A stretch of 64,000 bases of DNA, taken from the NCBI GenBank assembly GCA_024226335.1, contig JAAELY010000238.1, forward strand, positions 1-64,000, read 5' to 3'. Of the stretch, positions 1,071 through 4,851 are shown in pieces. A program made the translations under genes and the position numbers. The DNA is from a bacterium. Its GTDB lineage: Bacteria > Myxococcota_A > UBA9160 > SZUA-336. The notes beneath the pieces were generated by a model. It was given only the letters and a program-made list of their open reading frames with translations, ran no database searches and was not told where the DNA came from. Within the stretch, counting starts at the first letter, position 1. Every line of letters starts with the position of its first letter.

Positions 1071-1715
1071 ATGGACCACAACACTGCCCAGGCGGTTCCC
1101 TCACTTCGGGAGCGCAAGAAGGCCAAGACCCGGGCCGCCCTGATCGAGGCGTCCCAGCGACTCTTCGCGAGGCAGGGCTATACCGGAACCACGCTCGAGG
1201 ACATCTCCGCTGAGGTGGACATCACCACGCAGACCCTGCTGCGCTACTTCGATTCGAAGGCCCAGCTGGCCCTGGCCCCGTTGGCGGCCTCCCTCGAGGA
1301 GGTCGAGCGCATTCTTTTAGACGAGAACCGCTCGGTCGACACGCTGTCTGCGTGGCGTCTCTATGTGCAGCTGGAAGCTGAGGAAGCCTCGAACCCGTCT
1401 GAGTCGACGACCGTTACGTATGTTTCAAACCTACGCGCCTACGACCAATGGGTCGACAAGGATCCCCTGTTGGTCGCCACTCTCACGGGCGTAGAGCGAG
1501 AGCTCCAGGAGCTTCTGGCGACAGCCCTGGCCCGGGACGCTGGGGTCGGATCCGATGACCTGCACTCGACGTTGGTCGCAGCGCTGCTGGTCGCCGGCCG
1601 CAGGGCCATCTGGGACCGCTGGCTCGCGCGCAACTGCGAAACCGATTCCCTCGTCGAGGACCAGCTGGCCGTGGTGGACTACGCAGTCGGGAGTAGGGGT
1701 GTCGGAGACAACTAG
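1071..1715 (+). CDS. TetR/AcrR family transcriptional regulator
   Basis: This 214-residue protein has a typical TetR N-terminus: a basic stretch then a helix-turn-helix at about residues 20-65 (ALIEASQRLFARQGYTGTT, ISAEVDITTQTLLRYFDSK). The C-terminal ligand domain shows no recognisable subfamily. Family members are usually dimeric repressors released by a small molecule. It is divergent from the Baeyer-Villiger-type monooxygenase with only 76 bp between start codons, so it most likely regulates that enzyme and itself. No clear ribosome site precedes the ATG. Confidence 0.9.
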   Translation: MDHNTAQAVPSLRERKKAKTRAALIEASQRLFARQGYTGTTLEDISAEVDITTQTLLRYFDSKAQLALAPLAASLEEVERILLDENRSVDTLSAWRLYVQLEAEEASNPSESTTVTYVSNLRAYDQWVDKDPLLVATLTGVERELQELLATALARDAGVGSDDLHSTLVAALLVAGRRAIWDRWLARNCETDSLVEDQLAVVDYAVGSRGVGDN

Positions 1716-1737: not shown

Positions 1738-2871
1738 CTATGCGGCGATCTCAGGGATGTCGATGCCCATATCGCCGAGCAGCGGTAGGAACTTCGAGCG
1801 CGGGATCCGCTCGGCGAAGCCTGCGCGGCGCAGTCGGTTGAAGTACTCCTGAACCTGGCTGACCTGCAGGTGGCCGACGATTTCGATTCCCTTCTTGATC
1901 TGCTCGGGCTTCGTGCCCTTGCCCGCCAGCACGATCATCGCCTCCATGAGGGACGAGTCGAACTGCTGGATGCTGAACTCTTCGCCTGAATCGAGGCCCA
2001 GGTGAATCTGCTCCTTGCGCTCTGGCGCGTGGTCGATGACCCAGCGCAGATGTTGCAGGCCGTAGGATACGTGGCGCGCCTCGTCCTGCATGACGAGCTG
2101 GAACATTCGCTTGTCGACCGGTGTGGGCGAGATGTACTCGCTGAAGCGGAACATCGTCAGGATGTTGCCCTCGGCAAGCAGGTGCATGAACGCGCTGGCA
2201 TCGGAGTAGTTGTCGCAGTCGAGAATCGCCTTCAGCGAGTGCTCGGCCTGAGGTAGCGCGTGCATCAGGCCGACGCCGCCCGCCAGCGCTCGCTTGCGGA
2301 ATACCTCGGCATGACGCGCTTCGTCCATCGCCTGGGTGGCGATGAAGTGCTTCACTTCCTGGAACTGGTCGTTCATGCGCCAGACCCATTTTGCGGGCAG
2401 GTCGGTTGCGATCATTTCGACTTCGGTGAAGAAGGTGCAGAGCTGGGCAAAGGCGATCTCGACCTCGTTCGAGCGCTCGTACTTTTCCAGATCGCCCCAC
2501 GGTACGTCGGTGCTGGCATCCCATTGCCGGCTCATCGCTTCCTCTGTGAAGGAAGCGACCTTGTATGCCCAGACGTCGCTCTTCCGGTTCAGTTCGGGCT
2601 CGAGATCCGCCTGTCGATCCACGTCGTAGGCTGCACCTCTGGGCGCCGGTCCCCGCGCTCCGCGCGGCAGTTCGGGCAGATCGTCATAGCCATAGCTGCC
2701 CTGATTGATGTCCAGATAGGTGAAGCCCCGTTTCCCGTTTTCCGCATTGGCCTGGATCTGCTCCGTGCCCGCCTTCATCCAGCCGAGGTCCAGGTTTCCC
2801 TTGCGGATATCGCGCATGCGCAGCGCGAAGTCGTCGTTGTAGCGAAACTCGGTCGAGCCGTAGTAACTCAT
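1738..2871 (-). CDS. Ferritin-like diiron oxygenase family protein (all metal ligands present)
   Basis: This 377-residue protein has the carboxylate-bridged diiron signature of the AurF/R2-like ferritin superfamily: Glu152, then E184 and H187 in DEARH (183-187), and Glu234, then E264 and H267 in a second DEARH (263-267). Each first Glu is separated from its DEARH by 28-30 residues. Family members activate O2 for N-oxygenation, hydroxylation or desaturation, so an oxygenase is likely but the substrate is unknown. It is the second gene of a two-gene operon: the upstream paralogue stops at 2881, nine bases before this ATG, and the stop region (TAGGAA) supplies the ribosome site, suggesting translational coupling. 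There is no signal peptide, so it should be cytoplasmic. Confidence 0.82.
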   Translation of the reverse strand: MSYYGSTEFRYNDDFALRMRDIRKGNLDLGWMKAGTEQIQANAENGKRGFTYLDINQGSYGYDDLPELPRGARGPAPRGAAYDVDRQADLEPELNRKSDVWAYKVASFTEEAMSRQWDASTDVPWGDLEKYERSNEVEIAFAQLCTFFTEVEMIATDLPAKWVWRMNDQFQEVKHFIATQAMDEARHAEVFRKRALAGGVGLMHALPQAEHSLKAILDCDNYSDASAFMHLLAEGNILTMFRFSEYISPTPVDKRMFQLVMQDEARHVSYGLQHLRWVIDHAPERKEQIHLGLDSGEEFSIQQFDSSLMEAMIVLAGKGTKPEQIKKGIEIVGHLQVSQVQEYFNRLRRAGFAERIPRSKFLPLLGDMGIDIPEIAA

Positions 2872-2880
2872 GATGCGTTC

Positions 2881-3966
2881 CTAACCTTGAAGGAGTTCGA
2901 GGAAGTGGCTGAGGGGGGAGCGCTCGCGTCGATCACCCAGGCCGATCTTTTCGCAGCGCAAGAGGTACTCGTCGGTCGTGCGTTCGTAGAGTCGCGCGAC
3001 CGGATCCAACCCGCCCGAGAGCACGATCAGCGGTTCGATTACCTCGGGTGCACCGAGCGCACCCACCAGGGTGTTCTCGAGCAGGTCGAGGTGTTCGTTC
3101 AGGTGATCGGTCTCGCTCGGACGCGCTTGCAGGCTCATCCGGATGTGGTCGACGCCGTAGGCCACGAAACGCGTGGCGTCCTGCGTCAGGCGGGTACCCA
3201 GGAAGGCGTCGGCGGCGTTCGTGGCCGCCCACTCCCAATGCCGACCCAGCGCCTGAACGAACGACATCAGCGTCACGTTCATGCCGAGCGAGGTCTCTGG
3301 GTAGGTGTCACTTTCGAATACGGACTTCAGCACCTCTCCCAGGCCGAGTGAGTCGACCCCGAGCTGACCGGTCTCGCCAAACAATGCCCGCTTGCGGAAT
3401 CCCTCGGCGATGCGACACGCGTCGAACATCTGTACGCACATCAGGTATTTGATCTCGTGGAATTCCTGATTCGTGCGCCACTCCCAGTAGGCGACCGTGT
3501 CGTTGCAGACGAGACCGATCGAAACCAACGAGGTTGCGAGCTGGCGCAGGGCGCCTTCGGCCTCGTCCGAATGTCCGTGGTCGTTCAGCGCGGTCCAAGG
3601 GACGTCTTTCGCGGGCGCCCAGTGTCGCGACTTGCCCTCTTCGAAGAGTCGCCCGGAAAGATCCGACCAGACATCGCTCTTGCGATTGAGTCGGTAGCCC
3701 AGCGACGGCAGGCCTTCCGGCAGCATTGCACCGCGTGGGGCCATCGAGAAGTTGTGGCGGATGATCTCGGGGATTTGATCGGGCGAATAACCGCCCTGGT
3801 TGATGTCGTCGAGGGTGAGCCCCCGACTGGGCTGGCTGGCCGCGAAACCGGCGCTCTCGCCGGTGTTTTTCATCCAGCCCAGGTCCAGGTCACCCTGCAT
3901 CACCTTCACGACTCGCGCAAAGAGTTCGGGATCCTGGGAATAATCCTTCGGTGCGATGTACGACAC
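2881..3966 (-). CDS. Degenerate paralogue of the diiron oxygenase (metal ligands lost)
   Basis: This protein of about 361 residues aligns along its length with the downstream diiron protein (shared LNRKSDVW, FRKRAL and QD..R..YG blocks). Every expected iron ligand is replaced: Glu152 by Gly151, DEARH by DACRI (182-186), Glu234 by Met234, and the second DEARH by DATRF (263-267). The fold seems intact and there is no stop or frameshift, so it looks maintained rather than decayed. I chose the GTG at 3966 because GGAGGAGG sits just upstream (3979-3971) and the N-terminus then matches the paralogue (MSY); a GTG at 3987 is in frame but would lie at the predicted transcription start. It may be a non-catalytic partner of the active subunit. 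Confidence 0.8.
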   Translation of the reverse strand: MSYIAPKDYSQDPELFARVVKVMQGDLDLGWMKNTGESAGFAASQPSRGLTLDDINQGGYSPDQIPEIIRHNFSMAPRGAMLPEGLPSLGYRLNRKSDVWSDLSGRLFEEGKSRHWAPAKDVPWTALNDHGHSDEAEGALRQLATSLVSIGLVCNDTVAYWEWRTNQEFHEIKYLMCVQMFDACRIAEGFRKRALFGETGQLGVDSLGLGEVLKSVFESDTYPETSLGMNVTLMSFVQALGRHWEWAATNAADAFLGTRLTQDATRFVAYGVDHIRMSLQARPSETDHLNEHLDLLENTLVGALGAPEVIEPLIVLSGGLDPVARLYERTTDEYLLRCEKIGLGDRRERSPLSHFLELLQG

Positions 3967-3988: not shown

Positions 3989-4090
3989 GAGAGTATTGGC
4001 TAGCCCGCTCCCGGAGTGCAATGAGAGTAATGGCTAGTCCGTTCACTGGGTGCAATGAGAGTAATGGCTAGTCCGCTCCGGGAGTGCAAT
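3989..4090. repeat. Three tandem 34-bp repeats upstream of the diiron operon
   Basis: Three head-to-tail copies, each exactly 34 bp, lie at 3989-4022, 4023-4056 and 4057-4090 with a few substitutions between copies. On the minus strand each copy carries TTGCAC and, 18 bp later, AATACT or ATTACT, i.e. a sigma-70-like promoter. Copies 1 and 3 also hold a small palindrome (CTCC-N-GGAG). The copy nearest the gene would place the transcription start around 3985, just ahead of the ribosome site. The array could be a multiplied promoter or an operator array. Confidence 0.85.
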
Positions 4091-4245
4091 CTGAGAATCT
4101 CGATGGCCCACGGGGATTGAGATCTGCCGGCCAGGTGTGGTAGTATCCCTTCAGAACGTTGTAAGATGCTGATTTTGTAACGAATTGCTCTGATTGAAGA
4201 TCGCTCGACGGCCCCCGAAGTGGGTGCCAGAGCTGTGGAAAAGCC

Positions 4246-4851
4246 ATGAAGATTCGCTGTGCAGGATGGGCGCTGGCCGCTCTCGTTTCGCTTTCGCTAA
4301 GCGCGCCCGAGGCGCTGGCTGGAACTCTCACGTTGCGGTTTTTCGGGGGCAGTTCCCTGGATCGCATCCTGGACGACGGAGGCGTCGAGCTACCCGCCGG
4401 TAACGCTGCGTACATCTACGGAAATAGTGGGCCGCTCGACGTGAACTCGATCATCACGATGAACCCAGGGAGCGGTTTCAGTGTGGCCCCCGCCGGCATC
4501 GTGCGGTCCCTCGCCATCGGCGATGGCATCAGTCCCCCGACCGACACCGATGGTCGCTTCCTGTTCGAGGTCAATCTGGGCAGCTTTGAATCCCCGAACT
4601 TCGCGGACGGCCTGTCATTCTTCGTGTTTGCCTTCAATGCCAGTGATCCCGCGATCGCGACAGCCTATGGCGTTTCGCCAAGCTCGTACACGGTCGACAA
4701 TTCGATCTTGCCGCTCGACGGTGACTTGACGCCGCTGCCCGTCGATTTCGTTTTCAACGGCTTCGCCACGACGACTACGCCGGAACCGGCGACCGGCGTG
4801 CTTCTCCTGGCCGCCCTCGCGGGCCTGGCCGCCGCACGGCATCGCAACTAG
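4246..4851 (+). CDS. PEP-CTERM sorting-domain surface protein
   Basis: This 201-residue protein has an N-terminal signal peptide (residues 1-25, ending in EALA) and a C-terminal PEP-CTERM signal: TTPEPATG, a hydrophobic helix, then a short basic tail (ARHRN). The middle is rich in Gly, Ser, Asp and Asn and has no domain I recognise; it resembles small beta-rich exported proteins. PEP-CTERM proteins are processed by exosortase (EpsH/Xrt) and often go to the extracellular matrix. No exosortase lies in this window. The gene converges with the secreted protease gene, leaving only 26 bp between them. Confidence 0.85.
   Translation: MKIRCAGWALAALVSLSLSAPEALAGTLTLRFFGGSSLDRILDDGGVELPAGNAAYIYGNSGPLDVNSIITMNPGSGFSVAPAGIVRSLAIGDGISPPTDTDGRFLFEVNLGSFESPNFADGLSFFVFAFNASDPAIATAYGVSPSSYTVDNSILPLDGDLTPLPVDFVFNGFATTTTPEPATGVLLLAALAGLAAARHRN

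Follow-up and report, generated by a model that had tools for sequence, protein, structure and literature searches.

Organization of the locus

In the window, the whole stretch of 64,000 nucleotides that was analysed, two adjacent genes on the minus strand code for ferritin-like proteins. One of them contains all six ligands expected for a diiron site and is referred to as the active protein, and the other one is a paralogue devoid of these ligands, referred to as the dead protein. The features of the locus are the following.

1071 to 1715, plus strand: TetR/MftR-like regulator in convergent orientation to the pair; a context gene, without conservation alongside the pair
1738 to 2871, minus strand: type A active protein of 377 aa, a ferritin-like diiron protein with the full set of six ligands
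2881 to 3966, minus strand: ligand-less paralogue, type a, 361 aa, GTG start
3989 to 4095, no strand: three tandem units of about 34 nt, 85-87% alike, directly upstream of the dead gene

Both open reading frames are intact at these coordinates, and the stop codon of the dead gene is located 9 nt upstream of the ATG of the active gene. The three tandem 34-nt units occupy the spot that is held in relatives by a third gene, coding for a protein with a predicted SCP2 fold; they are possibly operator or regulatory sites, or the scar of a loss of this gene. No SCP2-like gene or remnant was identified in the window, relaxed thresholds included, and two copies of the SCP2-fold gene are present elsewhere in the same genome, at C522 and C518. 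This genome, a 556-contig assembly, contains three active/dead pairs.

Two further genes were identified close to the pair. Positions 1-1009 on the minus strand code for a Baeyer-Villiger-type flavin monooxygenase (PtlE-like; the part lying within the window scores 423 bits), which is divergent from the TetR/MftR-like gene; similar flavin monooxygenase (FMO) genes are found near several related loci. Positions 4246-4851 on the plus strand code for a short secreted-looking protein with a PEP-CTERM-like C-terminal tail (TPEPATGVLLLAALAGLAAARHRN).

Metal ligands of the two proteins

The dead and the active protein of the window align end to end, as had been noticed in the preliminary description of this DNA, and are 33% identical (E 9e-61). 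There, the replacement of all six ligands had been judged by eye; the alignment exactly confirmed each of the substitutions, which are E152G, E184A, H187I, E234M, E264A and H267F. The first motif, D183-E184-A-R-H187 in the active protein, thus reads D-A-C-R-I in the dead one, and the second motif, D263-E264-A-R-H267, reads D-A-T-R-F. The frame of the upstream gene, likewise described as intact, is open over 2881-3966 on the minus strand. The aligned positions are located as follows.

2416 to 2418, minus strand: codon of E152, which is ligand 1 of the active protein (from the alignment; coordinates counted from the start of the ORF)
2311 to 2322, minus strand: E184-A-R-H187, ligands 2 and 3 of the active protein (alignment)
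2170 to 2172, minus strand: E234, ligand 4 of the active protein (alignment)
2071 to 2082, minus strand: E264-A-R-H267, ligands 5 and 6 of the active protein (alignment)
3514 to 3516, minus strand: Gly replacing E152 in the dead paralogue (alignment)
3409 to 3420, minus strand: A-C-R-I replacing E-A-R-H of the first motif in the dead paralogue (alignment)
3265 to 3267, minus strand: Met replacing E234 in the dead paralogue (alignment)
3166 to 3177, minus strand: A-T-R-F replacing E-A-R-H of the second motif in the dead paralogue (alignment)

E152, E184, H187, E234, E264 and H267 are present in all intact type A, B and C relatives that extend far enough to cover them, some intact rows being cut by contig ends, and the same six positions are kept in nearly all outgroup rows. 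Since the intact types A, B and C keep these residues, they represent the right ligand positions. D183, D263 and R266 are fixed across the family in the class. The Asp and Arg of both motifs had been reported as retained, which is correct for the window but not classwide, since the Arg of the first motif is a Gln in most type b copies. At 42 positions, one same residue is present in at least 95% of both the dead and the active rows. N-terminal Trp, Arg and Gly positions are common to dead and active proteins, and the fold is conserved over the full length.

Relation to named diiron families

The active protein contains the E..ExxH..E..ExxH ligands in a helical core, with the helices and the fold being taken from a low-confidence model and the profile matches being weak. 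An assignment to an AurF/R2-like family had been proposed earlier. For AurF (PF11583), the score was 11.4 bits with a Pfam gathering cut-off of 29.6, for ribonucleotide reductase R2 (PF00268) 14.9 bits with a gathering cut-off of 33.6, and for R2lox (NCBIfam NF006200), still the best NCBIfam match, 29.1 bits with a curated cut-off of 194. DUF455 was matched by the active protein with 22 bits, also below the cut-off, and neither protein matched the Pfam families of PaaA/PaaC or of the hydroxylases of bacterial multicomponent monooxygenases (BMM) at E up to 1. The best single PDB match by sequence was to VlmB-like proteins (6d9f, 8wvr; E 0.02).

The active and the dead protein were modelled with AlphaFold as one fused chain of 742 aa, in which the in-frame TAG separating the genes was not treated as a stop. 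The model is of low confidence (pLDDT 60, pTM 0.43, with 11 aligned rows only); its best fold match in foldseek was VlmB (E 2e-4), PaaAC and R2lox were also matched, and weak matches were obtained to the BMM hydroxylase MMOH and to a class Ie R2 structure. A natural fusion by stop-codon readthrough was considered and rejected, since frame, spacing and stop codon differ between the pairs. Of the earlier assignment, the superfamily fold is thus retained on the basis of the foldseek matches, but membership in AurF, R2 or R2lox is not. The active protein is a member of the ferritin-like diiron superfamily outside every named family tested. None of the Pfam or NCBIfam models covers the two ferritin-like proteins, and no curated family model was found for the SCP2-fold protein.

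Conservation of the pair in the class

In a sample of 91 genomes of the same class, mostly MAGs in which several active genes are cut by contig ends, members of the family were identified in 31. The dead genes extracted from the class comprise 16 type a and 15 type b genes, one of the latter coming from a public record. All 31 are devoid of the six ligands, with the same positions lost, and none is broken by a stop codon. The preliminary description had proposed a count of how often the two genes are adjacent: each of the 31 dead genes adjoins an intact partner on the same strand, at a distance of -1 to 68 nt. Type a precedes its own active gene, and type b follows its own. Because the loss of the six ligands is combined with an open frame and an active neighbour in all 31 cases, the ligand loss is more than chance. 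A restriction of the dead paralogue to this genome, which had been named earlier as an outcome that would speak against the proposal, was looked for and not found.

Two irregular loci were noted in this sample. At L107:10435-11488 (G014:C65), a type A active gene has an apparent frameshift after residue ~285, representing either a sequencing error or a pseudogene. At L018:3627-3943 (G003:C59), the SCP2-fold gene is distributed over two reading frames, and ~17 residues are deleted in the adjacent dead gene; this may be an assembly error.

In the maximum-likelihood tree, types A, B, a and b are each monophyletic; the dead genes a and b form one clade (100/100) and the active genes A and B another one (100/98), with the roots resting on distant outgroups. 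The pair of the class therefore arose once, was copied as a unit and was co-inherited. In this tree, the history of the pair in the class is one of a single duplication with ligand loss, followed by a duplication of the pair into two types and a swap of the gene order. The distances of the partners correlate (r 0.59 and 0.89, 0/2000 permutations), with a contribution of shared species history.

Median pairwise omega values (NG86), which are rough since some pairs have a high dS, were 0.26 for type a, 0.14 for type b, 0.15 for type A and 0.08 for type B. Judged by these values, the dead genes are under purifying selection and about twofold less constrained than their active partners. This agrees with the earlier view that selection keeps the metal-less fold; a high dN/dS, which would have argued against it, was sought and not found, with the omega of the dead genes being 0.14-0.26.

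A third gene coding for an SCP2-fold protein

A gene of about 140-150 aa is the immediate neighbour of 15 of the 16 type A pairs and of all type B and type C loci (17 of 17 and 10 of 10, respectively; type C is described below). Its stop codon overlaps the start of the dead gene in most of the type A units checked, and the pair of the window is the sole exception among the type A pairs. The protein matched no Pfam family at E up to 1. The PDB entries closest to its model (pLDDT 91.4) were 2cx7 and 1wfr, with an E of about 6e-5 and a TM of 0.67; further SCP2 entries came next, and UbiJ was matched more weakly. An SCP2 (sterol-carrier-like) fold is thus predicted for the third protein.

SCP2 domains hold hydrophobic ligands. 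For the SCP2 protein UbiJ, it has been described that ubiquinone intermediates are held for oxygenases (PMC6747719). The third protein resembles UbiJ in its predicted SCP2 fold and possibly in serving oxygenases; however, UbiJ serves a complex of the ubiquinone pathway, and its gene has no diiron pair with a dead twin as neighbour. Among the papers searched, none described an SCP2-linked diiron pair.

The only recurring neighbours of the pair are the SCP2-fold gene and, for type B, a TetR gene; no reductase or ferredoxin gene recurs. Other nearby genes are not conserved in place and are mostly lipid- or CoA-related or oxidative, for example those for acyl-CoA dehydrogenase, FMO/BVMO, CoA transferase, AMP-binding and WS/DGAT proteins. 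As weak evidence, this lipid/CoA-type neighbourhood fits a hydrophobic substrate.

Single-subunit relatives and repeated origin of the dead twin

Type C proteins are mostly 43-45% identical to the active protein of the window. They contain all ligands and are encoded with an SCP2-fold gene, and no dead neighbour is present. When six genomes containing only type C were searched with a 14-row profile of the dead proteins, no dead twin was identified, the only matches being type C itself and weak partial ferritin-like ones. Since type C exists without a dead twin, the dead subunit is an addition and not a core part. At L113:6408-8126 (G057:C381), a type C gene with its own SCP2 gene is located ~4 kb from a complete type A triplet, so that both forms occur at one locus. 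At L140:11922-12332 (G069:C39), another SCP2-fold paralogue, diverged to 35% identity, follows ~1 kb after a type C pair and has no ferritin-like gene of its own.

A contig labelled Caldilineales was found to carry a type B gene, and therefore 301 genomes of that phylum, the Chloroflexota, were searched. Relatives were identified in 10 of them, with adjacent pairs consisting of an intact gene (EEHEEH) and a degenerate one; the ligand states of the latter include AAHGKH, ALHDRL, GAKKSH, GAMDLH and QQHTLH, among others. The dead genes of the Chloroflexota form one clade, whose sister are the active genes of the same phylum. The half-dead pair of G004 and G438 (EYHNCH, QYHNTH) represents a third origin in the tree, and the SCP2-fold gene also adjoins the pair of G004. 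In some Chloroflexota, the dead and SCP2 genes are set away from lone active genes (in G607, C10 versus C6; in G593, C47 versus C26 and C59). From these lone active genes together with type C, it follows that the dead subunit is dispensable for some members of the family.

The tree requires at least three origins of dead twins. A single clade of all dead genes was rejected (AU test, p 0.0013), and one clade of the Myxococcota a/b and the Chloroflexota dead genes was rejected less firmly (p 0.023). The repeated origin of dead twins points to an undescribed multi-part oxygenase. The chances are about even that the Myxococcota-like class and the Chloroflexota contain an undescribed SCP2-linked ferritin-like oxygenase system whose catalytic subunit acquired a pseudo-subunit devoid of metal on at least three independent occasions, from a single-subunit ancestor (active and SCP2) whose like persists. 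Neither the SCP2-fold gene nor the recurrence of dead twins in another phylum had been noticed in the preliminary description.

Proposed function of the pair

The two genes probably code for the partner subunits of a heteromeric diiron oxygenase of the ferritin-like type, in which the active half binds the metals, the dead twin replaces the second protomer and, in most relatives, the SCP2-fold protein carries the substrate. The active protein would bind two metals (Fe/Fe or Mn/Fe) and activate O2. The ligand-less twin would keep the fold and stand in for one of the protomers of an ancestral homodimer; its role would be structural or regulatory, and it may stabilise the active one, shape the substrate channel or dock partners. 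In most relatives, the role of the SCP2-fold protein would presumably be to take up a hydrophobic substrate, lipid- or steroid-like, and to hand it to the complex, in the way UbiJ serves the ubiquinone hydroxylases. We infer the oxygenase activity and the heteromer, as well as the type of substrate and the electron source; since no reductase gene recurs, the electrons would come from an unlinked system if the enzyme is an oxygenase. Several observations count against this reading: the fused model yielded no interface, neither a reductase nor a ferredoxin gene recurs at the pair, the window's pair has no SCP2-fold gene in cis, and both lone active genes and type C exist.

It is unlikely that the dead protein, instead of being a stable subunit, acts on the active enzyme transiently as an independent partner, for example as a metallochaperone, as an assembly factor or as a stand-alone carrier of the substrate. 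The separate location of the dead and SCP2 genes from the active gene in G607 and G593 and the existence of type C without a dead twin would fit such a role, but the same tight gene pair in all 31 class cases and the fold conserved over its full length, including the N-terminal Trp, Arg and Gly positions common with the active protein, argue for a subunit. Still less probable is the coexistence of separate homodimers, with the dead copy being a duplicate in slow decay or with a new function, linked to the active gene by co-transcription only. The roughly twofold faster evolution of the dead genes and the putative nature of the dead/active association are consistent with this; however, omega is far below 1, all 31 dead copies are free of stops, the two genes have remained neighbours through a duplication and a change of order, and dead twins have evolved next to active genes more than once. 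Metal-free redox chemistry of the dead protein, as in the metal-free class Ie ribonucleotide reductase R2, is very improbable: ligand loss alone is no proof of inactivity, the Lys and Ser replacing ligands in some Chloroflexota dead forms (GAKKSH) recall class Ie R2, and a structure of this class is among the weak fold matches, but the sites of the window type are filled by small or hydrophobic residues (G, A, I, M, A, F) varying between copies, and the replacement pattern is not common to the three origins.

Comparison to known systems

For the preferred reading of a heteromeric oxygenase, the PaaA-PaaC heterodimer of phenylacetyl-CoA epoxidase, with the iron site in PaaA only (PMC4498308), is one of the closest parallels. 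Here, too, a ferritin-like, presumably catalytic subunit is encoded beside a structural paralogue of the same fold, and PaaAC is among the fold matches. However, no PaaB- or PaaE-like genes are present, the SCP2-fold protein is the third component, and the partners are 33% identical, compared to 17% for PaaA/PaaC. The best reading, by analogy, is that the pair would work like PaaA/PaaC, outside that family.

In BMM (MMOH), a diiron alpha subunit is combined with an iron-free beta paralogue, and the retention of a catalytic subunit together with a metal-free paralogue is common to BMM, PaaA/PaaC and the present pair. In the gene unit described here, however, no gamma subunit, effector or reductase gene is present, and no BMM Pfam match was obtained. 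Where the known systems have PaaE or MmoC as reductase, none recurs beside the pair. An iron-free partner like BMM beta had been suggested for the window; as an analogy PaaC or BMM beta is still the best one, but membership in BMM is not supported by a Pfam match. In yeast, the R2-type diiron subunit Rnr2 forms a heterodimer with the ligand-deficient paralogue Rnr4, in which only part of the ligands is lost; this system is eukaryotic, catalyses an unrelated reaction, and the present pair is far below the R2 Pfam cut-off.

The VlmB/aldehyde-deformylating-oxygenase-like proteins (6d9f, 8wvr) are matched in fold at about 20% identity or less. VlmB-like enzymes are encoded by a single gene with all ligands, and we know of no dead twin or SCP2 gene for them. 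R2lox, which binds a fatty acid in a channel (PMC6399176), has the same type of ligand pattern but is encoded by one gene.

Iron-free partners are known from PaaC, BMM beta and yeast Rnr4, and each is usually taken as one old event. In the present family, a single-subunit form, a full twin pair and a half-degenerate pair, with at least three origins, are found side by side. The SCP2-fold partner suggests a delivery route for hydrophobic substrates to soluble diiron enzymes. With these forms side by side in one family, the question why diiron oxygenases acquire pseudo-subunits becomes testable within that family.
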